NCBI RefSeq assembly: GCF_025869345.1
Contig: NZ_JAOZVW010000117.1
Location: 99,865 to 163,864, forward strand
DNA: 64,000 nt
DNA from: Sphingopyxis sp.
Lineage (GTDB): Bacteria; Pseudomonadota; Alphaproteobacteria; Sphingomonadales; Sphingomonadaceae
Direction: 5' to 3'
Below, piece after piece: positions 4,847 through 28,557 of the stretch. A model generated the notes under the pieces. That model had not been told where the DNA came from and made no database searches. It worked only from the letters and a program-made list of their open reading frames with translations. Both the position numbers and the translations under genes were made by a program. The stretch's first letter is position 1, and the number at the start of each line of letters is the position of its first letter.

Positions 4847-5258
4847 CTCTCCTCATCCTCATTCCTGCGAAGGCGGGAATCCAGCTTTTTCCTTCCCTCA
4901 CGCCTTTGCGCCTTTGCGTGAAATTCAACAAATCTCACGCAAAGGCGCAAAGGCGCGAAGAATAAAGGGGAAGAGGAAAGCTGGATTCCCGCCTTCACGG
5001 GAATGACAGCGGAAATGGATGGAGGATGGGGGGCGATTCCGCTTCGTATCCACTAGTTGCGAACGTCTCGCAGCAACCTCTCGCCGGTTGACCTTTTCCC
5101 GCTTTCAAGGGCATAGCTCTTCGTCCAGGACATAAGTCCGGGTCGCATCCATAGGTGGTCGCTCAGGGGTGGGCGATTTGGGGGATTGGGATGCCTGTTC
5201 GCGCTTTCGTCAGCTTCATCGCCGGACATGATCGCCTTCGCCGCGAGGATGCGCGCGC
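4847..5258. other. Intergenic region with nested palindrome
   Basis: This 412-bp gap holds the nested inverted repeat at 4861-5004 and then about 250 bp of ordinary sequence leading to the redox cluster. I see no credible gene, no CRP-type or FNR-type palindrome and no convincing -35/-10 pair here. A weak GAGGA ribosome-binding site lies just before the ATG at 5259. Confidence 0.6.
4861..5004. repeat. Nested two-level inverted repeat
   Basis: The outer arms (4861-4888 and 4977-5004) match at 26 of 28 positions and belong to the GCGAAGGCGGGAATCCAGC palindrome family. Inside them sits a perfect 21-bp inverted repeat, 4901-4921 and 4935-4955, made of cctttgcg-type units. Transcribed, it would fold into one long hairpin. 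This is a MITE- or REP-like arrangement without a coding sequence. Confidence 0.75.
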
Positions 5259-7694
5259 ATGAGCGACGTGGTGAAGGTCGCGATCATCGGATCGGGGCCC
5301 GCCGGGCTGAGCGCCGCGGCGCGCGCGGGGCAGCTCGGGATGAGCCATGTCCTGCTCGAAAAGACCGACCATCTCTCCGACACCATCTTCAAATATCAGA
5401 AGGGCAAGCGCGTCCTGGCGACGCCCGAGCGGCTCGACCTGCGCTCCGACTGCCGCTTTGCCGAGGGCGCGCGCGAATATATCCTCGGCAATTGGGACGA
5501 GGATGCCGCGAACAACAAGGTGAACGTCGTCAAGCACGCCGATGTCGCCGAAGTGACCGGCGAGAAGGGCGCGTTCGCGATTCGGACCGCGAAGGGCGAC
5601 GTCTATCACGCCGAGACGATCGTCCTCGCGATCGGGACGCAGGGCAATCCGAACCGGATGCGCTGCGGCGGCGCCGACCTGCCGCATATCATCTATCAGG
5701 TCGACGATCCCGAGGATTTCAAGGACAAGCATATCACCGTCGTCGGATCGGGCGACGCGGGGATCGAAAATGCGCTGGGCGTCGCCGAGGAGGCGCTGGA
5801 AAATACCGTCACCATCCTCAACCGATCGAAGGATTTCGCGCGCGCCAAGGCGAAGAACGTCTCCGACATGATGGAGGCGGGCGAGAACGGCTTTTTGTCG
5901 ATCCGCACCGAGACCCAACCCAAGCTGGTCGAACCCGGCTGGCTGACGCTCGAGACGCCGAACGGCGACGAGAAGATCGAGTGCGATGTCATCGTCGCGC
6001 GTCTGGGATCGGTCGCGCCGCGCGGCTTCGTCGAATCGATGGGAATCGAATTCACCGGACCCGATCGCGAAGCCTTTCCGAAACTGTCGCCGACCTTTGA
6101 ATCGACGGTGCCCGGCATTTTCGTGATCGGCGCGCTCGCGGGCTATCCGCTGATCAAGCATTGCATGAACCAGGGCTATGACGTCGTCGAGTTCATCAAC
6201 GGCAACACCAGCCTGACCCCGGCCGACGAAAAGGATCTGGCGGCGATCTTTGCCGGTCTGCCGCAGCAGAAATCGGTGACCGAATGGCTCGACTATCTGC
6301 GCGAACGGGTGCGCATCTTCGCCGACGTCTCGCCACTTCAGATGCGCGAGTTCATGCTCGATTCGAAGGTCGCCTTCTACCGCAAGGGCGAAGTGGTGTT
6401 CGAGAAGGGTGACCCCGGATCGTCGCTGTTCGCGATCGCCGACGGTCATGCCGAGGTCGAGGTTGCGCCGGGCGTCACTGTGCCGATCGAACAGGGATCG
6501 ATATTCGGCGAAGTCGGCCTGATCTCCGGCCGCAAGCGCGGCGCGACGATCCGCGCGGGCGCCGACAGCATCTTCGTCGAAGTGTCGCGCACCGCGGCGC
6601 TCAAGCTGATGGGGTCGGTTCCGGGCGCCAAGCGCGCGATCAACCGCATCTCGCTCGAACGCCAGTTGCTCCAGATCTTCAAGGGCGGGCTGACCGTCGA
6701 GGATCTGGGTCCCGTCGTCGATGTCGCCGAGGTCGAGCGCATCCCCGCGGGCAAGGTGGTGGTGGCCGAGGGCGAGCAGGGCGACGACGTCTATGTCATC
6801 CGCTCGGGTTCGATGGTGGTCGAGAAGGACATCGGCGGCAAGCCGATCTTCCTGCGCTATCTGCCCGCCGGCAGCTTCTTCGGCGAAATGGGCGTGCTGA
6901 GCGGCGCGCCGCGCAATGCGACGGTGAAGGCCGCGGTCGGCAGCGAGGTCATCAAGCTGACTGGCGAGAGCTTCCGCAAGATGCTCGCCGCGCGGCCGCA
7001 GGTGCGCGAAGCGACCGAGGCCGCGGTGGCCGAGCGCGCGCAGATGAACAGCTTCATCGAATCGCGCAAGGCGAGCTATTCGAGCGCGGTCGATCTTTAT
7101 TCCGACACCGCCGGCTTCATCATGAAGGAGGGGCTGGGCGAGGCGACCGACGCGCTGCTGATCGACGAAAATCTCTGCGTTGGCTGCGACAATTGCGAGA
7201 AGGCGTGCGCCGACAGCCACGAGGGCCTGTCGCGGCTCGACCGCGAGGCGGGCAAGACCTTTGCGCATCTGCATGTGCCGACGAGTTGCCGCCACTGCGA
7301 GCATCCGCACTGCATGGCCGACTGCCCGCCGAACGTGATCCACCGCGGCCCCGACGGCGAGGTGTTCATGGAGCCCGGCTGCATCGGCTGCGGCAATTGT
7401 ATGCGCAACTGCCCCTATGGCGTGATCCGCATGGAAGCCGCGCCGCCCGAGAAGCCCAGCCTGCTGCGCTGGCTGCTCACCGGCTTCGGTCCCGGCCCCG
7501 GCGAGCCGTCGCCCAAATGGACGAAGAAGAAACTGGGCGATGAAAAGCCCAAGAAGATCGCGGTCAAATGCGATATGTGCAAGGGCATCGCGGGCGGTCC
7601 TGCGTGCGTCCGCGCCTGCCCGACCGGCGCCGCGATCCGCGTGTCGCCCGAGGAATTCCTGTCGATCGCGCGGCTTCAGGAGGATGCGGGCTGA
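5259..7694 (+). CDS. Flavoprotein / double cNMP-binding / 4x[4Fe-4S] fusion
   Basis: An 811-residue cytosolic fusion. Residues 1-330 are a two-dinucleotide-fold FAD/NAD(P)H oxidoreductase resembling YpdA/TrxR flavoproteins (GSGPAG at 11-16, VGSGDAG near 165), but without the TrxR CxxC, so electrons probably leave elsewhere. Residues about 355-450 and 480-580 are two cyclic-nucleotide-binding domains with phosphate-binding cassettes FGEVGLISGRKRGAT and FGEMGVLSGAPRNAT; both keep the key Glu and Arg. Residues about 635-800 are a DmsB-like ferredoxin domain with four cysteine sets (CVGCDNCEKAC, CRHCEHPHCMADCP, CIGCGNCMRNCP, and CDMC...CVRACP), consistent with four [4Fe-4S] clusters. The stop overlaps the next ATG by one base. 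Likely role, inferred: cNMP-gated transfer from NAD(P)H to the membrane cytochrome. The direction and substrate are unknown. Confidence 0.88.
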   Translation: MSDVVKVAIIGSGPAGLSAAARAGQLGMSHVLLEKTDHLSDTIFKYQKGKRVLATPERLDLRSDCRFAEGAREYILGNWDEDAANNKVNVVKHADVAEVTGEKGAFAIRTAKGDVYHAETIVLAIGTQGNPNRMRCGGADLPHIIYQVDDPEDFKDKHITVVGSGDAGIENALGVAEEALENTVTILNRSKDFARAKAKNVSDMMEAGENGFLSIRTETQPKLVEPGWLTLETPNGDEKIECDVIVARLGSVAPRGFVESMGIEFTGPDREAFPKLSPTFESTVPGIFVIGALAGYPLIKHCMNQGYDVVEFINGNTSLTPADEKDLAAIFAGLPQQKSVTEWLDYLRERVRIFADVSPLQMREFMLDSKVAFYRKGEVVFEKGDPGSSLFAIADGHAEVEVAPGVTVPIEQGSIFGEVGLISGRKRGATIRAGADSIFVEVSRTAALKLMGSVPGAKRAINRISLERQLLQIFKGGLTVEDLGPVVDVAEVERIPAGKVVVAEGEQGDDVYVIRSGSMVVEKDIGGKPIFLRYLPAGSFFGEMGVLSGAPRNATVKAAVGSEVIKLTGESFRKMLAARPQVREATEAAVAERAQMNSFIESRKASYSSAVDLYSDTAGFIMKEGLGEATDALLIDENLCVGCDNCEKACADSHEGLSRLDREAGKTFAHLHVPTSCRHCEHPHCMADCPPNVIHRGPDGEVFMEPGCIGCGNCMRNCPYGVIRMEAAPPEKPSLLRWLLTGFGPGPGEPSPKWTKKKLGDEKPKKIAVKCDMCKGIAGGPACVRACPTGAAIRVSPEEFLSIARLQEDAG

Positions 7695-8575
7695 TGGCGT
7701 CGCTCTTTCAGCGGCGCCGCTCGAAGGCGACCCAGACCGAGCGCGTGCGCGAGCGGCGGCACGAAGGCTTCCTGCGCTACGCCAATTTCCGCTGGGCGAA
7801 GATTTCGGGTGGGCTCTGTCTGCTGATCATCGTCTCCTATGCGCTGATCGACGTCACGCCGCGGCCGAGCGGCGGCACCTGGTACGGCTATACGCTGGGG
7901 ACGATCGGCGCGCTGCTGATCCTGTGGCTGACCGCGCTCGGCTATCGCAAGCGCAAGATGACGAGCGATTACTGGTCCTTGAAGGCCTGGACATCGGCGC
8001 ATGTCTATCTGGGTTTGAGCCTGATCGTCATCGGGACGTGGCACACCGGCTTTCAGCTCGGCTGGAACGTCCACACGCTTGCCTGGGTGCTGATGATGCT
8101 GGTGATCCTGTCGGGGCTTTACGGCGTCACCGTCTATGCGACCTTGCCCGCCGCGCTGTCGAACAACCGCGACGAGATGACACAGATGCAGATGCTCGAG
8201 GCGATCCGCGCCTTCGACCGCCAGCTTCACGCCGCCGCGCAGCCGCTGACCCCCGAGGATACCGCGCCGGTGCTCGCCGCGCTCGACGAGGACCCGTTCG
8301 CGGGCGGGATCATGGCGCGCTTGTCGGGGCGCTATCCCCGCTGCGCGACCGCCGCCGCGCTCGGTGCGCTCCGCCTGTCGCGAAGCAGCGGCGCCGAGGC
8401 ACGCGAAAAGGTGGTCGGCCTGCTCTCGCAGAAGGAAGCGGCGCTCGCGCGGCTCCGCCAGCATCTGCGCATCCGCGCGCTGCTCGAAGTCTGGCTTTAC
8501 GTGCATGTGCCGCTGACCTTTGCGCTGATCGCGGCGCTGTCGGCGCACATCATCAGCGTTTTCTTCTACTGGTAA
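7694..8575 (+). CDS. Membrane cytochrome b-like subunit
   Basis: A 293-residue integral membrane protein with about five hydrophobic segments: GGLCLLIIVSYALI, LGTIGALLILWLTALGY, HVYLGLSLIVIGTWHTGF, LAWVLMMLVILSGLYGV and, after a soluble insert of roughly 110 residues, LTFALIAALSAHIISVFFYW at the C-terminus. Two His pairs spaced 14 residues apart (in the third and last segments) fit four ligands for two b-type hemes, as in cytochrome b561 and ferric-reductase folds. It starts at ATG 7694 inside the TGATG overlap with the fusion flavoprotein, so the two are translationally coupled. Inference: it passes electrons between the cytosolic Fe-S protein and the periplasmic multiheme protein encoded next. 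No named family is certain. Confidence 0.75.
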   Translation: MASLFQRRRSKATQTERVRERRHEGFLRYANFRWAKISGGLCLLIIVSYALIDVTPRPSGGTWYGYTLGTIGALLILWLTALGYRKRKMTSDYWSLKAWTSAHVYLGLSLIVIGTWHTGFQLGWNVHTLAWVLMMLVILSGLYGVTVYATLPAALSNNRDEMTQMQMLEAIRAFDRQLHAAAQPLTPEDTAPVLAALDEDPFAGGIMARLSGRYPRCATAAALGALRLSRSSGAEAREKVVGLLSQKEAALARLRQHLRIRALLEVWLYVHVPLTFALIAALSAHIISVFFYW

Positions 8576-8594
8576 GGCGAGGGAGAGGGGGACC

Positions 8595-10532
8595 ATGAGC
8601 TTCATCCTGCGCCGCATCTCGACGACGAAGACGGGCAAGCAGATCATCCGCGACCAGGCGCTGCCGGGCGATACGATCACGCTCGGCCGCGACGCGGGCA
8701 ATGTCATCCATATCGCCGATCTGGCCGTGAACCCGCAGCACGCGGCGATCACGAGCGCCGATGGCCGCCATGTCCGCGTCGCGGCGAGCGAAGGGCTGGG
8801 GTTCGACTTCAACGGCCGCACCGTCGATACCGCCGATATCGACAGCGCCGCGGGCGCCGAACTACGTTTCGGCGGTCACCGCCTGACCATCACGCGCGAA
8901 GGCGACGACATCATCCTGCTCGTCGAGCGGATCGACGAATTGTCGCAATCGTCGAAGGACGTCGATGAGGCGAAGGCCTTTTCGCTCGCCGGGGTGATGC
9001 CAGGCAAGCGCATGGGCGCCTGGACCTTCGGCATCGTCGTCCTGCTCGCTTTCCTGATCGGGCCGATCTGGGCCTGGCACAGCTTTCGCGGTGTCGATGA
9101 GCGGCCGCAGGGCTATCACGCCGACATGGCCTGGTCGTCGGGGCCGCTGTCGAGCGCCCACGCCAATCTGAAGGGCGACTGCCAGGCGTGCCACGTCGAG
9201 CCGTTCGTCGCGGTAACCGACAAGGCGTGCGTCGGCTGCCACACCGGGGAGCACAAGGCGATGAGCGCGGCGCACGCCAATGCCCCGACCGCCATGCTGC
9301 TCGCCGCGCGGCATCCGCCGGGGGTGGGCGAAAAGGTTCTCGCGGGGTTCGCCAAGGCGTTCAACCGCCCGCAGGGGCGCTGCGTCGAATGTCATACCGA
9401 GCATGAGGGCGCGGGGCCGATGCCCGCGACGCCGCAGAAATTCTGCGCCGACTGCCACGACGGGATGAAGGCGCGGCTGATTGATGCGGGATTCAAGCCG
9501 ACCGTCGCCGATGCCGCCGATTTCGGCACGCTGCATCCCGAGTTTCGCCCGTGGGTCCATGCCGCGCCGGGCGCGAAGCCGGTTCGCGCGTCGGGCAAGG
9601 CGCCGCTTGACTATAACGGCCTCAAATTCCCGCACGACATCCACTTGAGCGCAACCGGCGGCGTCGCTCGTATGGCGGCTAGCTTCCGCGGCCGCTATGA
9701 TTTCGGCAACAAGCTCGAATGCGAAAATTGCCATCGCCCCGAAAGCGACGGGGTGCGGATGAAGCCGGTCGAGATGGAGCGCGATTGCGCGATGTGCCAC
9801 AGCCTCGCGTTCGAGACGGTGGGCGGGGTGACCCGCACGCTGCGTCATGGCGAGCCCGATCAGGTCGTCGCCGATCTCTTCGCCTATTACCGGTCGACCC
9901 CGCCGACGCGGCCGCTGCAACTCGGCGGGATGGAACGGCGGCGGCCGGGCGCCTATGCCGAGGGACAGGTCTACAACATCTATTTCCGCGAAGTCGCGGT
10001 GCGGCCGAGCCGCGCCGAGGATGCGGTGCGCGCGGTCTTCTCGAAGGGCGGGGCCTGCTATGACTGCCACACGATCTTCGCGCCCGCGTCGGGCAACAGC
10101 TGGCGGGTCCAGAAGGTCGTCCAGTCGCCGCGCTTCCTGTCGAAGGGCTGGTTCGACCACGCCGACCCCGGCCACGCCAAGGTCGAGTGCGCGACCTGCC
10201 ATACCGAGGCGCCGCGCTCGAAGCGCTCCGAACAGCTTCTTGTTCCGGGGCTCGCGCCGTGCCGCACCTGCCATGTCGGCGAGACCGGCGCCACGGTCGC
10301 GGCGGTGAAGGAACCGACAAGATCCTCGTGCGCGATGTGCCATGAATATCACTCCGACGGCGGCAAACCGTGGGCGCCGCAGCGCGAGCGCCGGAAAAAG
10401 GTCGCGGCGGTTACCGATCGTCCACCCATGGGCGTCTATACTGTGACCGCGATCACAGGTCCGGCGCGCCGTCATCTTTATGATGTGACATGGCGCACAC
10501 CGGTGCTGGGATTCGCAAGACAGGGCGGATGA
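8595..10532 (+). CDS. FHA-TM-decaheme cytochrome c fusion
   Basis: A 645-residue protein with three parts. Residues 1-110 look like a forkhead-associated domain (TITLGRDAGNVIHI, NPQHAAITSADG, then a FNGRTVD turn); FHA domains bind phosphothreonine. One membrane helix follows at about 137-160 (WTFGIVVLLAFLIGPIWAWH). From about residue 195 to 583 there are ten CxxCH heme c motifs (CQACH, CVGCH, CVECH, CADCH, CENCH, CAMCH, CYDCH, CATCH, CRTCH, CAMCH). The layout places FHA in the cytosol and hemes in the periplasm, with the helix as signal anchor. The start follows GGAGAGGGGG at good spacing, 19 bp after the cytochrome b gene. Heme attachment would need the Ccm system; ccmA and ccmB lie at the far end of this window. 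The electron acceptor is unknown. Confidence 0.85.
   Translation: MSFILRRISTTKTGKQIIRDQALPGDTITLGRDAGNVIHIADLAVNPQHAAITSADGRHVRVAASEGLGFDFNGRTVDTADIDSAAGAELRFGGHRLTITREGDDIILLVERIDELSQSSKDVDEAKAFSLAGVMPGKRMGAWTFGIVVLLAFLIGPIWAWHSFRGVDERPQGYHADMAWSSGPLSSAHANLKGDCQACHVEPFVAVTDKACVGCHTGEHKAMSAAHANAPTAMLLAARHPPGVGEKVLAGFAKAFNRPQGRCVECHTEHEGAGPMPATPQKFCADCHDGMKARLIDAGFKPTVADAADFGTLHPEFRPWVHAAPGAKPVRASGKAPLDYNGLKFPHDIHLSATGGVARMAASFRGRYDFGNKLECENCHRPESDGVRMKPVEMERDCAMCHSLAFETVGGVTRTLRHGEPDQVVADLFAYYRSTPPTRPLQLGGMERRRPGAYAEGQVYNIYFREVAVRPSRAEDAVRAVFSKGGACYDCHTIFAPASGNSWRVQKVVQSPRFLSKGWFDHADPGHAKVECATCHTEAPRSKRSEQLLVPGLAPCRTCHVGETGATVAAVKEPTRSSCAMCHEYHSDGGKPWAPQRERRKKVAAVTDRPPMGVYTVTAITGPARRHLYDVTWRTPVLGFARQGG
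10442..10491 (+). promoter_or_regulatory. CRP-type site and class II promoter before the cpdA-like gene
   Basis: TGTGACCGCGATCACA at 10442-10457 is a perfect CRP consensus (TGTGA-N6-TCACA). A TATGAT hexamer lies at 10479-10484, which puts the predicted start at about 10491 and the CRP centre at -41.5, the classical class II activator position. The site is inside the last codons of the decaheme gene, 125 bp before the phosphodiesterase start. Use by a CRP homologue is inferred. Confidence 0.72.
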
Positions 10533-10581
10533 CGATGGGGCGGCCGCGACCAGGCGGCGGGAGCAGGGGCAAGGGACGGAC

Positions 10582-11430
10582 ATGCTGATCGCCCAGATCA
10601 CCGATATCCATATCGGTTTCGACCCCGACAACCCTGCGGAATATAACCGCAAGCGGCTCGACGACGTGCTCGACGTGCTGATCGAGGGGCCGAACCGTCC
10701 CGACCTGCTGCTCGCGACCGGCGATATCACCGATCGCGGCGATCCCGACAGCTACCGCCGGCTGGCGACCGCTTTCTCGCGCTGTCCCTTTCCGGTGTGG
10801 CCGAGCGTCGGCAATCATGATCTGCGCGACAATTTTCACACCCAGTTTCCCGGCTTCGACGACGGCAACGGTTTTGTCCAATATAGTGTCGAACTGCCCG
10901 AACTGCGGCTGGTCACGATCGACACGCTCGAGGAGGGGCGCCACGGCGGCGCCTTTTGCGACGCGCGTGCGGCGTGGCTCGACGCCGAACTGGCGAAGGA
11001 CAAAGCCAAGCCGGCCTATATCGTGATGCATCATCCGCCGGTCGAGAGCGGCATCGAATGGATGAATACGCACCCCGACGAGCCGTGGGTGCACCGTTTC
11101 ACCGATGTCGTCCGCCGCCACGATCAGGTGCGCGGCCTGATCTGCGGCCATCTCCACCGCGCCGTCACCGTCGCCTGGGAAGGGCGCACGATCGCGATCT
11201 GCTCGTCGACCGCGCCGCAGGTCTCGCTCGACCTCCGACCGATCGACGAGAACAAGCCCGACGACCGTCCGATGATCGTCGCCGAAGACCCCGCCTATGC
11301 GATCCACCGCTGGAACGGGCGCGAACTGGTCAGCTTCTACGACCATGCGGGGGCGCACACGATGCTCGCCAAATATGACGAGCGGCTCCAGCCGCTGGTG
11401 CGCGAGTTGAAGGCCGAGCGGCCGGTCTGA
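10582..11430 (+). CDS. cpdA: CpdA-like cyclic nucleotide phosphodiesterase
   Basis: A 282-residue calcineurin-like metallophosphoesterase of the class III cNMP phosphodiesterase group. All five metal-site motifs are present: D8-x-H10, GD48 in ATGDITDRGD, GNHD at 77-80, H150 in VMHHPP and GH190-x-H192 in GLICGHLHR. The family hydrolyses 3',5'-cAMP (CpdA) or, in relatives, other phosphodiesters, so the substrate is probable rather than proven. No signal peptide; cytosolic. It lies 49 bp after the decaheme gene on the same strand and has its own CRP-type promoter, which would make a negative feedback loop on cAMP. A weak purine-rich site (AAGGGACGG) precedes the ATG. A hairpin follows between it and the convergent dehydrogenase gene. 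Confidence 0.82.
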   Translation: MLIAQITDIHIGFDPDNPAEYNRKRLDDVLDVLIEGPNRPDLLLATGDITDRGDPDSYRRLATAFSRCPFPVWPSVGNHDLRDNFHTQFPGFDDGNGFVQYSVELPELRLVTIDTLEEGRHGGAFCDARAAWLDAELAKDKAKPAYIVMHHPPVESGIEWMNTHPDEPWVHRFTDVVRRHDQVRGLICGHLHRAVTVAWEGRTIAICSSTAPQVSLDLRPIDENKPDDRPMIVAEDPAYAIHRWNGRELVSFYDHAGAHTMLAKYDERLQPLVRELKAERPV

Positions 11431-14041: not shown

Positions 14042-17000
14042 TCAGGGTTGCGTATCGGTCGTCGGGGTCCACAGATCGTCGTTGCCCGCGCCGGTCACCG
14101 GATCGTCGAGCAACGGCTCGCCGGTCAGCGGGTCGAGGGCGCGCATCGTGATCAGTGCGGTGGGCAGGCTGGTGCCGTCGCCGTTTTCGTCGTCGCTGTC
14201 GACTTCCTTCTCGATCACGTCCTGGACCGGGAAGTTCGATTCATAGTCGGGCTGCTCGGGCGGGACGAAGGAGCAGGCCGCGACATTGGCGATCAGGCAG
14301 CCGTTGAAGGTCGCCCGCGGATCGTAGAGATCGGACGGGACCACCACGCCGCCGCCGTTGATCGTCAGCAGCGGAATCGTGTCGAGCCCCGTCACCTGTC
14401 CGTCCGGTCCCAGATGCACCCCGTTGAGCACGATCTGCACATTTCCCTCGCTTGCGAGGTTGAGACCGCCCGCGCCGAAAGTCAGCCCGCGGCGCTGCGC
14501 ATAATCGGTGCCGCTGCCGCTGTTCTGGACATAGACATTGCCGTTGAAGGCCATGCCGCGCGCGAAGAGCGCCCCTTCGTCGAGAGTGATGCCATCGTTC
14601 TGCGCCAGCCGCGTTTCGATATCGTCGAGAGTGGTTGCATTGGCGACGTCGTCGATGGCCTCCGGCGTGGCGACGATGATATCGCGCGACCGCATGTTGA
14701 GCTGTCCGCCCGGCGCATCGTTCGCGCCGACCAACCGCACCGAGCCTTGACCCAACAGGACTTCGAGCGCCGTGTCGGCGCGCAGGTTGAGCGCGTTGGC
14801 GTCCGACAGTCCGGTCAGTTGGACATCGCCGAGAACGCGCATCTTGCCGGGCGTGCGGATCGTCAGCGACCCGTCGACGCCGATGTTCGATCCCGAGGCG
14901 CCGCCCGTCACGGTGAATCCGTCGACCACGACGTCGGGCGGTGCCGCGCCACCGACCGAGAAGTCACCGACGGTGCTCACCTCGGGCGCGAAGATCTGGA
15001 TATCGTGGCCGAAGACCCGCGTCAGTTCGTCGGCGTCGATATGATAGCCGTTTTTCGTGCCCGTGCCTCCGACGAAGGTCTGCTGCTCGTTGTCGCCGTT
15101 CTGGAACGACAGCCCCTGCGTCACGTCCGCGGTGCCCACACGCGCGGCGCTGCCGATTGTGATATCGGCGGATGCCAGCGCGATATTCTCGCCGGTCACG
15201 ACGCCGTCGATCAGCAGCGAACCGAAGGCGTTCACGTTGAGTGCGCCCGTTACCGTCACATTGTTCAGCGTGACGAAACCGTCCGTCGCCGTGATCGCGG
15301 CGCTGTCCGCGGTCAGCGTATCGATGCCGACGCGCTCGCCCCCGCCGCTCAGATCGGCGCGGCCGGCGACGTCGCCGTTGACGATGAACAACTCGCCGTT
15401 CGTCCGCACGGCGGCATCGCCGACATCGGTGACCAGATTGGCAAAGGTCAGGTCGCTGCCGTCGCCGATGAACAGACTGTCGCCGCTGGCATCGATGTTT
15501 CCGCCCGATGCCAGCGTGCCGAGGTTGATGAGGCCATCGCTGCTAGAGAGCGTGGTCGCGCCGTTGCTTTGGACCAGATCGGCGGCAACGCCCGTCGCGC
15601 CCGAGAGATTCATGTCCCCGCCGCCGATGACGCCGGTCACGGCAATCGCGCCGTCGGCGGTCAGCGTGACATTGCCTTGCCCGGTGAGGCTGCCGCCGTC
15701 GATGCCCGCGGACGAGGTGATGGCGATGTCGCGGCCCGCCGTGAGGGTCTGAAGCACGGCGCCGCTGGGAGTGGTCAGATCGGCGAGTTGGACGCTGGCG
15801 CCGCCGATCGCGATATCGCGGCCCGCCTGCACGGAGCCGGTGACATTGGCGGTCCCGGCCGCATCGACGACCACGTCGCTGAACGCGTCGAGCCCGGCCA
15901 GCGTCGTATCGCCGCCCGAGGTGCGGATGCTGCTGTCGCCGCCGGTGACGCCGAGGCCCAGCGTCTCCCCGCCGTTCAGCGCGATCGTGGTCGCGGCGGT
16001 CAGGAAGATGTCGTCGCCCGCCGACAGGCCGGTCGCGGCGATCGACACGCCCGACGAGCGCAGGTCGATGTCGGCGCCGTCGAGCGAGGTCGATCCTTCG
16101 CCCTGCCCGATGGTGAAGCCGCCGGTCGGGGAATAGGCCAGCAGGAAGCCGTCGGGGCCGAGGCCGGTCGCGCTCACGTCATTTGCAGTGATCGCGCCGG
16201 TCGCCCGCACGTCGAGGTCGTCGCCGACGCTGACCTCCGCAAGGGTCGCCGTGCCCTGCGCCAGGACGAGCATGTCCTCACCCGCCGACGCGTTGGTCAG
16301 CGCGACCGACCGGCCGTTGATGCCGAACATCCCGGCGGCGCTGCTGTCGGTCAGGGTGACGTTGCCGATCGCATCGACATAGACGTTGCCGGCGCTCGGC
16401 ACATCGGGGTTGGACGAATCGGGATAGCCGCCCGTCGCGCTGACCGACGCGACGACATTGCCGCCCGCGCTCAGCATCGCGTTGCCGCCGGCGTTGTAGG
16501 TGCCGCCGATGTCTCCGGCCGCCGAAACGCCGATGTTGCCGGTGATGACGGCGTTATCGATCGCGACCGCGCCGGTCGTGCCGGTCGCCGAAAGCGAAGT
16601 GGCGGCGATGACGCTGCCGACGTCGATGCTGCCGCCGGCCATATAGACGTCCGAGCCTGCAACGATCGACGTGCCCGCAATTGCTCCTGGATCGCCGGCC
16701 GATCCCGTCGTGTCGAGATCGACAAAGGCACCCGCGTCGAGCGCGCCGAAGCTGATCGATGCGCCATCGGCGTCGATATAGCCGCCCGCGGTCGCATTCG
16801 CCAGATTAGCCGCGCCCGCCGCGCTGACGATGAGATTGTCGCCGGCGGCAAGCGGCCCGGTCGCCGTGATCGCGCCGCCTGCAATCGCGGCCAGATTGTT
16901 AAAGGCATCGACATTGGCGGCGGTGATGCCCGTGCCTGCGGTCAGCGTGATGTTCGACAGATCGGCCGGCGTCGTCACGATCTGCAGGAAAGGTGTCGGC

Positions 17001-20000
17001 GATGAACTGCCTGCGACGTAGACGATGCTGCGATCGTCGCGCCCGGTTCCGGTCGTCGCGGCATTGGTGGCGCTGACCGCGCCGCCGGCCTGGACGGTCA
17101 GGTCATCGCCGGCGGTGACCCCCGAAAGCGTCGCGGTCGTCCCGGCGAGGACGAAGACATCCTCGCCCGCACTCGCGCCGGTCAGGCTGGCCGCGCCCCC
17201 CGCGCGGACGCCCAGCATCGTCGCGGCGCTGCTGTCCGTCAGGCTGACATCGCCGTCGGCATCGACGAAGACATAGCCTTCGGAAGGGGCGTTGGCCGAT
17301 GAATCGACATAGCCGCCCGTCGCATCGGCTTCGGCGGTCACATTGCCGTCAGCGCCGAGACGGACGTTGCCGCCCGCGCGATAGGTGCCCGAAAGATCGG
17401 TCACCGCGAAAGCCGCGATGTCGCCCGCGACATCGGCAAGACCGATCGCCGCATTGCCCGCGGTCGCGTTCACGAACAGCGATCCGCCGGACTGCACCGT
17501 CCCGTCGATGCCGATGCTGCGACCATTGATGCCGACGCTGCTGCCGGCGGTGATGCCGGTTCCGAAGATGCCGTCGGTCGCGCCCGTGCCCAGCGCCTGA
17601 AGCGACACGAAGCCGCCCGCATCCGCGTTGTCGAAAGCGATCGATTGTCCGGTGACGTCGATATAGCCGCCGGCGGTCGCATCCGCCAGATTGGCCGCGC
17701 CCCCGGCATCGACGAGCAGATTGCCGCCCGCGATGAGCGGTCCCGTCGCGGTGATCGCGCCGTTCGCGGTCGCGGTCAGATTGTTGAAGGCGTTGACATT
17801 GGCGGCGGCGAGACCCGTGCCCGCTGTCAGCGTGACGTTCGACAGGTCCGCTGGCGTCGTCGTGATCTGCAGGAAGGGGGTCGGCGACGAACTGCCTGCG
17901 ACGTAGACGATGCTGCGATCGTCGCGCCCGGTTCCGGTCGTCGCGGTATTGGTGACGCTGACCGCACCGTCGGCCTGGACGGTCAGGTCATCGCCGGCGG
18001 TGACGCCCGAAAGCGTCGCCGTCGTTCCGGCAAGGACGAAGACGTCCTCGCCCGCGCTCGCGCCCGTCAGGCTGGCCGCACCGTCCGCGTGGACGCCGAG
18101 CATCGTCGCGGCGCTGCTGTTCGTAAGGCTCACGTCGCCGTCGGCATCGACGAAGACATAGCCTTCGGAGGTGAAGCTGCCCGATGGGTCGACATAGCCG
18201 CCCGCGGCGTCGGCTTCGGCGGTCACATTGCCGCCGGCGCCGAGATTGACGTTGCCACCCGCGCGATAGGTGCCCGAAAGATCGGCCGCCGCGAAAGTCG
18301 CGATATCGCCCGCGACATCGGCAAGGCCGATCGCCGCATTGCCTGTGGTCGCGGTCGCGAACAGTGATCCGCCGGACTGGATCGTCCCGTCGATGCCGAT
18401 GCTGCGGCCGTCGATGCTGACACCGCCGCTGCCGGCGGTGATGTCGGTGCCGAAGACGCCGTCGGTGGCGCCCGTGCCCGACGCGCTGAGCGAGACGAAG
18501 GTGCCCGCGTTCGCGCTGTTGAAGGCGATCGATTGCGCGGTGACGGCGATATGGCCGCCCGCGGTCGAATTGCCGAGATCGGCGGTTGTCACCACATTGA
18601 TGTCGATATCGCCGTCGGCGATGATCGAATTGAGGCCGGTGCGGAAGCTGTATGTATTGGCCAGGAAGTCGTTCACCGCCTCGGCATGTTCGATGACGGC
18701 GAGGTCGTTGGCGGTGATGACGATGTCATTGCCCGCAATCCGATCCGCGATGACGCTGGAGACCGGGCCGATGCCCTGGAGCGTCAATGTGCCGTCGGCG
18801 CTCAGCAGCGTGCCGGGATCTGCGTTGATATTGAGTCCGCTCGATATCGACATATCGCCAGTGGCGGCGAGCGTCGCCGTCCCGCCGCGATTCGAATGCG
18901 TGACATGCACTGTATCGAAGGCATCGATCGTCAGATTGCCGCCGGCGCTCACCTGTCCGTCGCCCTCGGCATTGATGTCCACGCTGCCGTTGGTGCGCAG
19001 CGTCATGTCGCCCGCCGTGGCGATCGAGCCGCCGGGCATGGTCATGAAGATTCCCGGCGATGTCGCCGTGGTGTTGCCGTTGACCGGCTCCGCGAATCCC
19101 GACGCTTCGGCCGTCAGGCTGCTCATCGCGATCGTGCTGCCGGCGCGCAGTTCGATGCGTCCGGCAAGGGAGCCGTTCGCCTGGATGCTCGTGTCGCCGA
19201 GGCTGATCTGGCCCGTGCCGCCGGGGGTCGTGAAGGATTCGATGAGAACGCGGCCGCCCTGGTCGGCGAGCGTGCCGCCGAAATTGCCGTTGCTGCCCGA
19301 TCCGGTGCCGCCATTGCCGCCGGTCCCCGGCACGCCGTTGACGGTGATCGCGACGGGGGCGCCGTCCGATGTGATGGTGCCGCCATTGGCGAACAGGTGG
19401 ACGTTGCCGCCGGTCGCGCCGCCGCCGGTCCCGCCGTCGCCGCCAGCCAGCCCCTGGCTCACGTCGTCGGCCGTGTCGGGGATGCCGTCGGGGCCGGGCA
19501 GGGTGATCAAGTTCGGATTGTCGCCGCCGTTGCCGCCGGTGCCGCCGGTGCCGCTGCTGCTGAAATCGCCGCTGAGGCTGATCGTCGCGCCGTTGCTCGC
19601 GATGACCTCGAGCGTTCCGCCGGTGGCCGAGCCGCCGTTGCCGCCGCGCCCCGCGACGGCGGGGGTCGCGAAGAATCCGGTGGAAGCCGCGCCGCCGTTG
19701 CCGCCGGTCGCGCTGGTGTTGAAATTGGTCTGCGAGACGGTGGCCGCGCCACCATTGCCGTTCGCTGCGACGCGGGCGGTTCCGCCGAACGCATCGCCGC
19801 CGTTGCCGGCATTGCCGTCGATGCCGTCGCCACCGGTGCCGCCGAGTGCCGAAGCGTCGAGGTTCAGGCTTGATAGGTTGGCGCCATAATCGTCGATGGC
19901 TGCCTGAGCGACGCCGCCGCGTCCATTGCCTCCATTGGCGCCGTTCAAACCCGAACCGCCGTTGCCGCCGGTGCCGGTTGCCTGCGCGGAGAGGGTGCTG

Positions 20001-23671: not shown

Positions 23672-23701
23672 GGCGGTGGTCCTTGCTGCAAAGGTCATGG
23701 C

Positions 23702-25549: not shown

Positions 25550-25701
25550 CCTCACCCCTTGCGTACCTCGTGCGCCCGCCATGCCGCGCGCACTCATAAC
25601 TCATGCCCCGCCGGTTGCCCGACAGTGCGAATTTTCGACCCAAGGAAAGGACTTTGCCGCTTTTCTTTATGGCAGCTTTTTCGCACTATTATCAGATGGG
25701 C

Positions 25702-25724
25702 AGGGCGGGTTCAATGCCCGCCCT
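25702..25724. terminator. Hairpin between FecR-like gene and tpsB
   Basis: An 8-bp perfect stem (agggcggg / cccgccct) lies just after the FecR-like stop on the minus strand and before tpsB. It may partly terminate the CHAT-cyclase-FecR transcript or protect it, so the TPS pair could be expressed at a different level. No U-run in the minus direction. Confidence 0.45.
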
Positions 25725-25730
25725 TTCGTA

Positions 25731-26495
25731 TCAGCCGCCCGTTGTTTCGCTGTCGGACATCGCGCTGACCAGCCGGTCGAGCTGCGGCGTGCAGCCCTTT
25801 GCCATCAGCATGTCGACCGAGCTTTCGGCGCTGTCGGGCAACGGTCCCATTGGCGTGAAGCGGATGGTGACCGGCTTCGCCAGACCCGCGCCGGAAAGGC
25901 GATAGTCGACGCCATATTGCAGGGGCATCGCCTCGGTCGGCCATTTGCGGAAATTCGCGCCGGCGACGATCGCGACCGTCTCTTCCTTGCCGTCCTGCTC
26001 GATCTTGAGCAGCTGATCGGTGTCCATGTTCGGCCGCCACAGCGTCAGCCGCGCGGGATCGGCGACGCAGAAGGTGCCGCCTTCGCGAAAATCGACCAGC
26101 CACAGGTTCGGTGCGCGGATATCGACCGGCGGTGCTTCCTCGGCCCCGCGCGAAAATCCGCCGCGCGAGCGCATCGTCGGGCCGGTCGACAGCATCCGCG
26201 TCACCGTCGCGCCCATCGACTGGCTGGCCTGGATCGTGCCGGTCGCGCCGAAGGTGCCGGGCCCCGACAGCGTCCGGGTCTTGCCCGCCTGCATCAGCAC
26301 GATCTTGTCGCCCGAGACGAGCGTCAGCCGGTCGGTCGATTTGAGCTTGGTTCCGGTCGGATATTTGCCGGCGGACGGTCCCGTCGATCGCACGACCATC
26401 GACTGCGCGGCGGCGGTGCCGGCAAAGGCGACCACCGCGATGGCGGCGGCGGCGGCCAGGCCGATGCGCCGCATCGGAACTTCAGGAAAGGACAT
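25731..26495 (-). CDS. FecR-like periplasmic protein
   Basis: A 254-residue exported protein. The N-terminus is a signal peptide (MRRIGLAAAAAIAVVAFAGTAAAQ; ATG 26474 gives a tighter one than 26495). Residues about 35-85 resemble the FecR fold: YPTGTKLKSTDRLTLVSGDKIVLMQ followed by GKTRTLSGPGTFGA. The remainder, with one Cys in GGTFCVADP and one near the end, is unassigned. FecR domains pass envelope signals in iron regulators, but no sigma factor is nearby, and this subgroup is usually found beside CHASE2 or CHAT genes (from memory). The start overlaps the end of the cyclase gene by 14 bp, so the two are co-translated. Confidence 0.65.
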   Translation of the reverse strand: MSFPEVPMRRIGLAAAAAIAVVAFAGTAAAQSMVVRSTGPSAGKYPTGTKLKSTDRLTLVSGDKIVLMQAGKTRTLSGPGTFGATGTIQASQSMGATVTRMLSTGPTMRSRGGFSRGAEEAPPVDIRAPNLWLVDFREGGTFCVADPARLTLWRPNMDTDQLLKIEQDGKEETVAIVAGANFRKWPTEAMPLQYGVDYRLSGAGLAKPVTIRFTPMGPLPDSAESSVDMLMAKGCTPQLDRLVSAMSDSETTGG

Positions 26496-28557
26496 AGCTT
26501 TCTCCCTTTTCGGTCTCGTTCAGTCGTTCGATCAGGAACATGATGGATAAATCCTTACCGAAGTCTTTTGCCAATGCTGTGGCGGCGATCACATGGGCCT
26601 GTTTATCGCCCGCCGCGTGGGCCGCGACAAGCGCCGCGATGCGCGCGCGCTGCTCGGGCGGCAGGTCGGGGCGCGGGGTCAGCACGTCGACCGGCTGCGC
26701 CCGGCCGCGCAGCGTGACGCGCCCCATCGGCACCAGGTCGTCGCGGCCCGAACGCTCGGCCGCCTCGGCCGAAATGAGCACGCCGGTCTTCAGGCTCTTG
26801 TTCGCCGATTCGAGCCGTGACGCGGTGTTCATGCTGTCGCCGAGCGCGGTATATTGGATGCGGCCCTCGCCGCCGAAATTGCCCACGATGGCATCGCCGA
26901 CGTGCAGCCCGACGCGCGTCATGCCGATCGGCGGAACATCCTCGCCGGCCAGGTCGACGCGGAAAGCCTCGCCCGCCTGATACATGGCGATCGCCGCCGC
27001 CGCGGCCTTTTCGCCATCGTCCGCCCGGCTGATCGGCGCGCCCCAGAAAGCGACGACGGCGTCGCCGACGAACTTGTCGATCGTCCCGCCATGGTCGAGC
27101 ACGATGTCGGACAGGCGGTCGAGATATTCGTTGAGCAGCCGCGCCACCGTTTCCGGGGTCGTCGCGTGGCTCAATTTGGTGAAGCCTTCGAGATCGGTGA
27201 AGATGCAATAGATGTTGCGCCGCTCGCCGTGGAGCGAGAGCTGGTCGGGATCGCGCATGATCTGCGCCGCGATGTCGGCGGGTAGATATTTGCCGAGCGC
27301 CGACTGCGCGAACGCGCGCTGGCGCGACCCGATGGTGCGCGCGGCGGTGCCGACCGCGGCATAGCCGAGCAGCCAGCCGATCGCCCAGCCGAAGGCGGGA
27401 AGCGTGGTGGTATCGACATGATGCCCCTGGAGCCAGAAGGGGAAAGCGGCGAAGAAGACCATTTGGCCGAGAAAGGCGAGCGCGACCCAGCGCGCGCGCA
27501 TGTCGATGAGGCTGGTGAGGCCGCCCGCGATCACCACCAGCGCCGCGAGCACCCAGAGCGCCGGACCGGGCACCGGACTGGACCAGTCCTTGTCGAGTTG
27601 CTGTGCCAGCATATGCGCGTGAACCTCGAGCCCGATCATGGTCTCGTGCAGTCCGGTGATCGGATCGGTGAAGCGGCTGAGCGGCGTGTTGAACTGGTCG
27701 TTGTCGATCACATTGCCGCCGATCAGCACATAGCGGCCCCGGATCATCTCAGAAAAGGCCGCGCGCGTATCGGCGTCCATCGGCGCGGCGAAGGTGTCGA
27801 TCGGAATCTTGGAAAAGACGGGCTCTTCCTGTCCCTTGGCGACGCGCGCGGGCACGAGAAAGCGGATATTGCCCTTGAAATTGGCGTGCGCGGGGTCGAC
27901 CGGAGCCAGCGCATTCGCCATCAGCGGCGGCAGATTTTTCGGCCGGTCGGGCCAGTTGCGGATCACACCGTCGCTGTCGGTCCGGAACAGCACGCTCGTC
28001 GGCCTGGTCCTGGCCGTCGTCACCTCGGCCAGATAGGATTCGAGATATTTCTGCTGTTCATAGAAAATGGTGTTCGGATTGCTCGCCTGCTCGGCATAGG
28101 CGAGCCATGTCGGCGTTTTCATCGCGCGAAGCTGCGCCTTCAGCAGGGCATCGTCGGGGCGCGGCGAGTCGAAGACGATATCGATGCCGATCGCTTTCGG
28201 ACCCATCTGATCGAGATTGGCGAGCGCGTTCGCCAGATAGGTGCGGTCGAGCGGCGAGCGGATGCCGGTGTTGAACAGCGTCTCGTCGTCATAGGTGACC
28301 ATGACGATGCGCTTGTCCTGCCCGACATGCGGCGCCATCAGCGTCGCGCGCGCATCGTAAAGCGCGCGTTCGGCGTCGCCGACGAGCGGCATCTGCCAGC
28401 TCAGCCGTGCGAACAGCGTCGCGATGATCAGGAACAGGATCGTCGCCGCCATGCGCGAGGGGCCAAGCTGCATCACCAGCCGGCGGATCTGCTTGCGCAG
28501 CGGAACGGCCGCGGGGCGCGTCTCCCCCGGCGCGGGATCGGTGGTCGCCGTTACCAT
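26482..28557 (-). CDS. CHASE2-domain adenylate cyclase
   Basis: A 691-residue membrane sensor enzyme. One helix near residue 38-55 (AATILFLIIATLFARLSW) leads to a periplasmic CHASE2 domain of about 270 residues (DKRIVMVTYDDETL, GPKAIGIDIVFD, RGRYVLIGGNVIDND). Three helices follow at about 330-405, then a class III cyclase domain: FTDLEGFTKLS with metal Asp455, DKFVGDAVVAF with Asp499, and YTALGDSMNTASRLE with the transition-state Asn and Arg. All catalytic residues are kept, so it should be active; the Thr in YTALGD fits the common bacterial adenylate cyclase type. The start lies 4 bp after the CHAT stop. Role: convert an envelope signal into cAMP. The signal is unknown. Confidence 0.88.
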   Translation of the reverse strand: MVTATTDPAPGETRPAAVPLRKQIRRLVMQLGPSRMAATILFLIIATLFARLSWQMPLVGDAERALYDARATLMAPHVGQDKRIVMVTYDDETLFNTGIRSPLDRTYLANALANLDQMGPKAIGIDIVFDSPRPDDALLKAQLRAMKTPTWLAYAEQASNPNTIFYEQQKYLESYLAEVTTARTRPTSVLFRTDSDGVIRNWPDRPKNLPPLMANALAPVDPAHANFKGNIRFLVPARVAKGQEEPVFSKIPIDTFAAPMDADTRAAFSEMIRGRYVLIGGNVIDNDQFNTPLSRFTDPITGLHETMIGLEVHAHMLAQQLDKDWSSPVPGPALWVLAALVVIAGGLTSLIDMRARWVALAFLGQMVFFAAFPFWLQGHHVDTTTLPAFGWAIGWLLGYAAVGTAARTIGSRQRAFAQSALGKYLPADIAAQIMRDPDQLSLHGERRNIYCIFTDLEGFTKLSHATTPETVARLLNEYLDRLSDIVLDHGGTIDKFVGDAVVAFWGAPISRADDGEKAAAAAIAMYQAGEAFRVDLAGEDVPPIGMTRVGLHVGDAIVGNFGGEGRIQYTALGDSMNTASRLESANKSLKTGVLISAEAAERSGRDDLVPMGRVTLRGRAQPVDVLTPRPDLPPEQRARIAALVAAHAAGDKQAHVIAATALAKDFGKDLSIMFLIERLNETEKGESYVLS

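Follow-up and report, generated by a model that had tools for sequence, protein, structure and literature searches.

Analysis of a Sphingopyxis gene cluster with features of an NAD(P)H-linked trans-envelope electron chain

The known conduits of Gram-negative bacteria, the MtrCAB and porin-cytochrome systems of Shewanella and Geobacter, take their electrons from quinol and are familiar chiefly from anaerobic growth. Like them, the gene set examined here has a predicted inner-membrane donor, a periplasmic multiheme cytochrome, an outer-membrane barrel and a second decaheme cytochrome. Part of it lies in the window, by which we mean the whole stretch of 64,000 nucleotides of Sphingopyxis DNA that was analysed. 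The coordinates confirmed the arrangement given in a preliminary description, namely four genes on the same strand (FE, CYTB, FHAC and PDE), with the start ATG of CYTB overlapping the FE stop codon (TGATG) and gaps of 19 bp between CYTB and FHAC and 49 bp between FHAC and PDE. We consider it likely, with a probability of about 0.7, that FE, CYTB and FHAC make up that half of a trans-envelope electron chain which lies in the cytosol and inner membrane, with the outer half encoded on another contig (C36) of the same genome. The basis for this is the domain content of the proteins, the co-occurrence of FE, FHAC, an outer-membrane-type barrel and an LVIVD cytochrome, and the fusion of FE to CYTB in some relatives. 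The preliminary description knew of no system with the full set, and in the open-access literature (titles and abstract starts, among the matches listed) we likewise found neither a description of such a system nor its assignment to a known complex.

Domain content of the core proteins

FE (5259..7694, + strand; 811 aa) carries an NAD(P)H/FAD domain, two cNMP-binding domains (CNBs) and a ferredoxin-like part with four [4Fe-4S] motifs, as had been proposed; the Pfam matches were to Pyr_redox_3 (E 7e-30), to cNMP_binding over two stretches (E 1e-32) and to Fer4 families. Its FAD/NAD(P) domain (5274..6176, residues 6-306) has the two-Rossmann FAD/NAD(P)H fold of YpdA/Bdr and the TrxR-like ferredoxin-NADP reductases (PDB 7a7b, E 4e-17). 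Unlike these enzymes, FE is fused to CNBs and FeS clusters and lacks CxxC, which was sought in residues 1-330 and was not present. Membership of the YpdA family was rejected, as the score against TIGR04018 (E 7e-36, 123.7 bits) lies under the curated cutoff of 339.9. An NRSK motif past the second Rossmann site suggests NADPH as the substrate. The FeS part (7158..7661, residues 634-801), with 4-Cys motifs beginning at residues 640, 677, 708 and 771, resembles the four-cluster HycB/DmsB/FdnH subunits of systems such as formate dehydrogenase-N and FHL (7z0s_B, E 6e-20), and as in those of these systems that have b-type anchors it adjoins a His-paired membrane protein, CYTB. In contrast to those subunits, it shares one polypeptide with an NAD(P)H flavoprotein and the pair of CNBs, and no molybdopterin or hydrogenase partner was found among the neighbours scanned. 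An apparent FE-tetraheme fusion (L182, a frame of 1144 aa) was rejected as an over-extended start in another frame.

CYTB (7694..8575, + strand; 293 aa) is a polytopic membrane protein with hydropathy windows at residues 37-55, 65-83, 129-147 and 266-290. Two candidate heme-b His pairs, 103/117 and 271/285, are each 14 residues apart, in agreement with the preliminary description, and the helix bearing the first pair falls under the hydropathy cut-off used. In the homologue alignment, His103 and His117 were kept in 106/106 sequences and His271 and His285 in 104/106, the remaining 2 being gaps; His127 was also invariant. Membership of PF01292 (cytochrome b561 / Ni-hydrogenase cytochrome b) was rejected, since its 21 bits (E 3e-4) are under the gathering cutoff of 30.1; the paired His residues are conserved. 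CYTB had no match among PDB sequences at E<=1 (phmmer/hmmsearch). It is probably a di-heme cytochrome b. FE and CYTB are fused into one protein at two loci (L103 and L105) from two genomes of one genus.

FHAC (8595..10532, + strand; 645 aa) was said to carry ten hemes, and ten CXXCH motifs were found across residues 196-579; the same number occurs in 101/103 homologues. One TM-like window (9012..9068, residues 140-158) is placed before the heme motifs, which would put the FHA-like part in the cytosol and the hemes in the periplasm. The FHA domain itself (8595..8930, approximately residues 1-112) is under the cutoff in Pfam (E 0.086). When the AlphaFold model was searched with Foldseek, its beta-sandwich (residues 3-112) clearly corresponded to the solved FHA domains topping the list, and the 37 solved chains at E<=0.001 were FHA domains or, by title or known content, FHA-containing proteins or complexes. 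The Gly-Arg of the fold is present in 103/103 homologues; judged from the model, the FHA fold is real. In canonical FHA domains, one Ser contacts phosphothreonine. This position is Asn in the window protein, with Ser in 4/103 and Thr in 4/103 homologues. Canonical phospho-gating was therefore rejected, the Ser being missing in 99/103, so that of the earlier proposal of an FHA signal input the fold stands and the phospho-gating does not. FHAC was also rejected as an OmcA/MtrC-family cytochrome (TIGR03507, 26 bits, cutoff 209), and no known catalytic domain was found in it with Pfam at the thresholds used. All residue-conservation counts leave out a truncated FE (L068), three CYTB fragments and a short FHAC frame (L136, 499 aa, 7 CXXCH).

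Conservation of the neighbourhood and the outer half

Genome comparison bore out the proposal of a single electron-transfer cluster. The order FE-CYTB-FHAC was found in 39/40 fetched loci and in 63 of the best 80 loci from the collection scan, three of which duplicate DNA of the first set and were retained in the counts; recurrence in dozens of genomes argues against chance. Neighbour counts rest on tblastn because the gene caller was unreliable on these GC-rich loci. On contigs long enough, the same strand downstream of FE-CYTB-FHAC carried an HbpS-like protein (cl3) in 52/59 loci, an outer-membrane-type beta-barrel (cl4) in 47/54 and a 10-heme LVIVD protein (cl7) in 39/49, leaving 7 to 10 eligible scan loci without the respective gene. 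A glutamate dehydrogenase gene lies near the cluster in 5/120 loci and at the genome's own C36 locus, which is too rare to build on.

In the genome under study, the tetraheme cytochrome, the HbpS-like protein with a lipobox, the barrel and the 10-heme LVIVD protein are encoded in tandem on C36, apart from the window. The preliminary description, limited to the window, covered the inner half, and the system as a whole extends beyond it. Ten CXXCH motifs were present in 21/21 LVIVD-protein genes that the gene caller recovered whole, and the one such protein scanned matched the Pfam families LVIVD and Cytochrome_C554; the one HbpS-like protein scanned contained HbpS-like domains. The barrel model has 18-19 strands (mean pLDDT 73) and resembles a polysaccharide exporter, its best structural match being AlgE (E 5e-17, 12-14% identity). 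No Pfam family matched at E<=0.01 in the two barrels scanned (L096 and L145), and assignment to the MtrB/PioB family was rejected, given this lack of a Pfam match and AlgE as nearest fold. One LVIVD protein and the barrel profile found nothing among PDB sequences at E<=1 (phmmer/hmmsearch).

The two halves also occur together across genomes. With cut-offs of E<=1e-10 for FHAC, 1e-80 for FE and 1e-30 for the barrel and LVIVD protein, FE and FHAC were present in an identical 52/149 family genomes and an identical 20/240 class genomes, and the barrel and LVIVD protein in an identical 53/149 and 15/240, counts that ignore kinship. The FE/FHAC genomes include all 15 of the latter class genomes and 52 of the 53 family genomes, the 53rd being 67% complete. 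Among the 52 family genomes, FHAC and the LVIVD protein lie within 15 kb in 26, farther apart on the same contig in 15 and on separate contigs in 11; with half of the pairs unlinked, linkage alone does not explain the co-occurrence. Two decaheme cytochromes, FHAC and the LVIVD protein, were thus found together with an outer-membrane-type barrel, and the route to an outside acceptor first suggested for the cluster now appears likely.

The association has exceptions. FE and FHAC occur without the barrel and LVIVD protein in 5/20 class genomes, of which two have another barrel-type/cytochrome module (L094 and L099), and one has a locus that ends early; the remaining two include G120, in which FE and a weak FHAC match (E 2e-12) are on different contigs. 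Alternative cytochrome modules beside FE-CYTB-FHAC were seen at L131, L153 and L163 as well. FE stands without CYTB at 12 of the best 80 loci, 8 of which have at least 3.9 kb behind FE; in most of these it instead follows barrel, LVIVD-protein and tetraheme genes, and at two Thiotrichales-type loci (L133 and L137) no partner was seen. CYTB and FHAC may therefore be dispensable, or encoded elsewhere, in these genomes, and FE alone was rejected as a marker of the full chain. Records whose titles name Sphingobium, Tahibacter, Dokdonella and Alcanivorax contained the cluster. On plasmid pMSHV of Sphingobium herbicidovorans, FE-CYTB-FHAC-PDE faces the LVIVD-protein, barrel and HbpS-like genes. Carriage on plasmids as a general rule was rejected, as 12 of 72,556 PLSDB records held the cluster at the limits used, all of them Sphingobium replicons. 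Carriage by viruses was rejected too, since none of the 20 pattern matches in viral_contigs encoded a relative.

Cyclic-nucleotide input, electron route and alternatives

The key residues of the CNB phosphate-binding cassette are Glu and Arg. Both are intact in CNB1 (6369..6623, about residues 371-455, bounds estimated; cassette FGEVGLISGRKRGAT) and CNB2 (6735..6989, residues 493-577; cassette FGEMGVLSGAPRNAT), and together with the cassette Gly they are kept in both domains of 119/119 FE sequences, so that the cyclic-nucleotide input claimed earlier is upheld at the level of the domains and control of FE by it is plausible. PDE (10582..11430, + strand; 282 aa) carries the metal-binding motifs of class III metallophosphoesterases. 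These it shares with CpdA and SpdA, its best NCBIfam matches; unlike their members, it scores well under both curated cutoffs (SpdA, named 2',3'-cyclic nucleotide phosphodiesterase: E 3e-41, 141.7 bits, cutoff 400; CpdA: E 2e-22, 80.2 bits, cutoff 225). It is nearer SpdA, and was rejected as a member of either family. What had been called a probable cAMP phosphodiesterase is thus a metallophosphoesterase by its motifs, and possibly a cAMP phosphodiesterase. Nor is it a general part of the cluster: PDE was found at 20/20 family loci, at 1/20 others (4.8 kb away) and at 0 of the best 80 scan loci, and by these neighbourhoods it belongs mainly to the sphingomonad version. A CHASE2 and class III adenylate/guanylate cyclase gene (26482..28557, - strand), a possible cNMP source whose tie to FE is conjectural, lies 15 kb from the cluster. 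A nearby cyclase was seen by tblastn in 8/120 loci, with a Pfam check that covered L101, L137, L170 and the window; this neighbour, too, is too infrequent to build on.

The cluster is best read as an NAD(P)H-linked conduit that works like a porin-cytochrome system, with an AlgE-like barrel and a flavin, FeS and cytochrome b input. NAD(P)H, probably NADPH, would reduce the FAD of FE, from which electrons would pass through the four [4Fe-4S] clusters to the b hemes of CYTB. Having crossed the inner membrane, they would reach the decaheme domain of FHAC in the periplasm, and tetraheme or lipoprotein carriers would take them on to the decaheme-LVIVD protein at the outer-membrane barrel and to an outside partner. 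The two cyclic-nucleotide sites would switch electron entry, with the adjacent phosphodiesterase and a cyclase setting the cNMP level in sphingomonads, and the FHA-fold domain may dock FE onto the membrane cytochrome rather than read phosphothreonine. More tentatively, the chain could be a cNMP-switched respiratory export line from cytosolic NADPH to the cell surface through both membranes, bypassing the quinone pool and widespread in presumed aerobes (sphingomonads, Lysobacterales, Alcanivorax and others), with exchangeable inner and outer modules, FE-CYTB-FHAC being paired with two or more distinct cytochrome modules.

Outward flow would be the thermodynamically easy direction, and uptake is conceivable. 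An outside reduced compound or mineral could feed the LVIVD protein, FHAC and CYTB, and FE would then make NAD(P)H or buffer the pool in lithotrophic or mixotrophic growth. Every part is reversible in principle, and Sphingobium, Tahibacter, Dokdonella and Alcanivorax are regarded as aerobes, to which extra electrons would be useful; against this, NAD(P)+ reduction from c hemes of usual potential has to be powered, and the proteins scanned included no ion-driven subunit. We hold such use to be improbable. We also hold it rather doubtful that the LVIVD protein, HbpS-like protein and barrel form a dedicated reductase complex of the periplasm or outer membrane, an enzyme with its porin acting on a single soluble substrate such as heme, a nitrogen oxide or some organic molecule, reduced at the expense of FE-CYTB-FHAC with no extracellular transfer. 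The HbpS-like domains, the AlgE-type barrel and the alternative cytochrome modules at five loci would suit such a reductase, whereas no known catalytic domain was found in FHAC, one LVIVD protein or one barrel (Pfam at the thresholds used; PDB sequences for the latter two). That the cNMP domains are remnants or have a structural role, PDE an unrelated neighbour and the chain free of cyclic-nucleotide regulation seems unlikely. The absence of PDE from the best 80 scan loci, its closeness to SpdA and the scarcity of nearby cyclases fit this view, yet the cassette residues are invariant despite FE identities down to 42% (in a subset of 39 sequences), and at L101, at a distance of 4.8 kb from the core, a gap of 3 bp separates a PDE homologue from a CHASE2 cyclase; the window, too, contains a CHASE2 cyclase.

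Comparison with known conduits

If the conduit reading is true, many presumed aerobes, soil degraders like Sphingobium herbicidovorans among them, would own an overlooked electron exchange with the outside that is coupled to the NAD(P)H pool as well as to a signalling nucleotide. The gene set also offers a candidate pathway for proteins that at present carry the labels 'hypothetical', 'cytochrome c3 family', 'heme-binding' and 'metallophosphoesterase'. Compared with AlgE, the alginate exporter with the closest solved fold, the partner barrel differs in co-occurring with decaheme cytochromes. Compared with MtrCAB, FHAC and the LVIVD protein give the same 10+10 hemes as MtrA and MtrC, whereas the proposed input is NAD(P)H via FAD, FeS clusters and cytochrome b instead of quinol via CymA, the barrel is AlgE-like with 18-19 strands and no Pfam match, the outer decaheme cytochrome bears LVIVD repeats, and the input enzyme carries cNMP domains.

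Layout and predicted products of the cluster

The four same-strand genes at positions 5259-11430 were found where the preliminary description had placed them, with the same overlap and gaps. The first, FE (811 aa), consists of an FAD/NAD(P)H domain of the two-Rossmann type, two cyclic-nucleotide-binding (CNB) domains and a HycB/DmsB-like part that carries four 4-Cys cluster motifs. When its flavin part was searched for CxxC none was seen, so a role as a thioredoxin reductase-type disulfide reductase is unlikely. The polytopic CYTB (293 aa) has two His pairs, 103/117 and 271/285, and FHAC (645 aa) combines an FHA-fold domain with a single membrane helix and ten CXXCH motifs. A model of FHAC from 44 sequences (mean pLDDT 72, pTM 0.51) was built without hemes, and its heme part was left uninterpreted; its N-terminal beta-sandwich was the counterpart of the FHA domains topping the Foldseek list (MU2 FHA, E 5.5e-5). 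The fourth gene encodes a metallophosphoesterase (10582..11430, plus strand) closer to SpdA than to CpdA, with a score under both cutoffs. Upstream of FE, at about 4850-5015, lies an inverted pair, GGCGGGAATCCAGCTTT / AAAGCTGGATTCCCGCC, which looks like a short repeat element. The minus strand of the window also encodes a repetitive 3218-aa protein without a Pfam match (14042-23698) and, adjoining it, a ShlB/FhaC-type two-partner secretion transporter (23702-25597); Sphingobium herbicidovorans plasmid pMSHV has a ShlB/FhaC gene too, about 3 kb from FE.

Conservation of the cluster and its proposed outer half

FHAC was present in 52/149 genomes of the same family, 20/240 of the class and 9/299 of the phylum (four of these nine belong to the same family), and FE was present in the identical 52 family and 20 class genomes, one of the latter (G120) being weak, with an FHAC match of E 2e-12 on a different contig from FE. 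The neighbourhood, for which a check in other genomes had been proposed, was conserved: the order FE, CYTB, FHAC was found in 39/40 loci fetched from FHAC genomes, including one (L068) in which the contig start cuts FE. In the 40th (L098, genome G178) FE sits on a separate contig behind cl7, a decaheme-LVIVD protein, and the contigs break within the barrel gene, which makes a permuted order probable. Scanning the collection with an alignment of 19 sequences gave at least 583 relatives among at least 591 candidate stretches; of the best 80, which were kept and include three duplicating DNA of the first fetched set, 63 had all three genes, five had the FE-CYTB pair at the end of a contig, and in the other 12 FE was seen without CYTB. 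All 12 relatives found on plasmids were from Sphingobium, which suggests a sphingomonad host for the window. Four records of the scan (L159, L175, L179, L184) bear the title Klebsiella pneumoniae or Bordetella parapertussis and are metagenome bins; the titles are probably wrong and uninformative about those pathogens.

In two genomes of a single genus FE and CYTB form one frame of 1123 aa (L103, 3052-6423) and 1118 aa (L105, 3850-7206), which supports a predicted physical complex of the two. The FHACs of these loci have 9 CXXCH motifs versus the usual 10.

Three further genes recurred on the same strand 3' of FHAC among the best 80 scan loci, counting those with a long enough contig: the HbpS-like cl3 (52/59), the outer-membrane-type barrel cl4 (47/54) and cl7 (39/49). 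The cl7 proteins are about 1300 aa long with ten CXXCH; one scanned member each revealed two HbpS-like stretches in cl3 and LVIVD repeats in cl7. Of 59 long cl3 frames of uncertain start site, 32 had a lipobox-like Cys near the N-terminal end. The cl4 barrel had no Pfam match; a model of the L145 member (28-sequence alignment, mean pLDDT 73) had 18-19 strands and matched AlgE best (E 5e-17, 12-14% identity). In 8/20 family loci cl7 lies on the opposite strand behind the phosphodiesterase gene, as it does on pMSHV, where cl7 matches a gene annotated as multiheme c-type cytochrome (77% identity), cl4 one annotated as hypothetical protein (73%) and cl3 one annotated as heme-binding protein (73%).

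In the window's own genome the outer half was found on another contig, C36, where genes for a tetraheme cytochrome (25945-27381), cl3 (23950-25938), cl4 (22009-23949) and cl7 (17683-22005) follow on the minus strand with called gaps of 6, 0 and 3 bp. A CcmH/CycH-type TPR gene lies about 1.6 kb beyond them, and such a gene is upstream of FE in 17/20 family loci (at up to about 0.6 kb in 15 and about 3.6 kb in two); the two loci of this genome therefore appear to be fragments of a single ancestral neighbourhood. A glutamate dehydrogenase gene also recurs near FE or the outer-half genes (L085, L101, L124, L125, L129; C36 27429-28784), possibly a link to NAD(P)H or chance.

The two halves also co-occur. 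Both cl7 and cl4 were found in an identical 53/149 family genomes, namely the 52 with FE/FHAC and G261, which is 67% complete, and in an identical 15/240 class genomes, all within the 20 with FE/FHAC. FHAC and cl7 were within 15 kb in 26 of the 52 family genomes; 15 had them on one contig but at least 15 kb apart, and 11 on separate contigs. Fisher's test gave 1e-39, a statistic that ignores kinship. Five class genomes had FE/FHAC without cl7 (G025, G052, G060, G105, G120); in G025 the contig stops 1.9 kb past FHAC, and G060 and G105 carry an alternative module (L094, L099) in which cl20 is a multiheme cytochrome, cl21 a protein with no Pfam match and cl8 of tetraheme type. This module stood beside FE-CYTB(-FHAC) in L131, L152, L153, L159 and L163 as well, L152 and L159 stopping within CYTB. 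In six loci, four titled Betaproteobacteria (L154, L172, L177, L182, L183, L184), barrel, decaheme-LVIVD and tetraheme genes lie directly 5' of FE, with an HbpS-like gene in all except L182; no CYTB or FHAC was seen in these stretches, and FE may have a different inner partner there. FE was intact with none of the partner genes in L133 and L137 (titled Thiomargarita and Thiotrichales); upstream in L137 are a gene for a class III cyclase and one for a histidine kinase. The alternative modules and FE-only loci show that the parts can be recombined.

Signal inputs

Of the two built-in signal inputs claimed for the cluster, the cyclic nucleotide one was supported by the comparison and the phospho one was not. 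The cassette Gly, Glu and Arg were invariant in both CNB domains of 119 FE sequences, making cNMP sensing likely. The FHA Gly-Arg was invariant in 103 FHAC sequences and the phosphothreonine-Ser position was Ser in 4/103 and Thr in 4/103, a rarity of Ser that makes phosphothreonine sensing unlikely. The phosphodiesterase gene followed FHAC in 20/20 family loci; it was found in 1/20 other fetched loci (L101, where it is 4.8 kb off and has a CHASE2 cyclase gene at 3 bp) and in none of the best 80 of at least 583 scan relatives. The window encodes a CHASE2 sensor with a class III nucleotidyl cyclase (26482-28557, minus strand), about 15 kb from the phosphodiesterase. With tblastn matches to similar cyclases near FE in just 8/120 relative loci, its link to the FE system is weak.

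Proposed electron path and relation to known systems

Domains and topology suggest a cofactor order. In the simplest reading electrons would enter from NAD(P)H through FAD and four FeS clusters to b hemes and leave through decaheme FHAC to the decaheme-LVIVD/barrel set, with cyclic nucleotide switching the chain. The direction of flow, any involvement of quinone and the partner outside are presumed in this scheme; the same FE-CYTB-FHAC/cl7 chain may serve electron uptake, or the set may be a dedicated outer-membrane reductase.

The individual parts are members of known superfamilies. The full set had been put forward as lacking a described counterpart, and among the matches listed from the open-access literature searched, titles and abstract starts described no such combination. 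One study reports many multiheme cytochromes with no known role, also from organisms that are not known as electroactive (PMC11475568), which fits the present system. The set is classed here as working like porin-cytochrome systems, but not as a member of the Mtr family.
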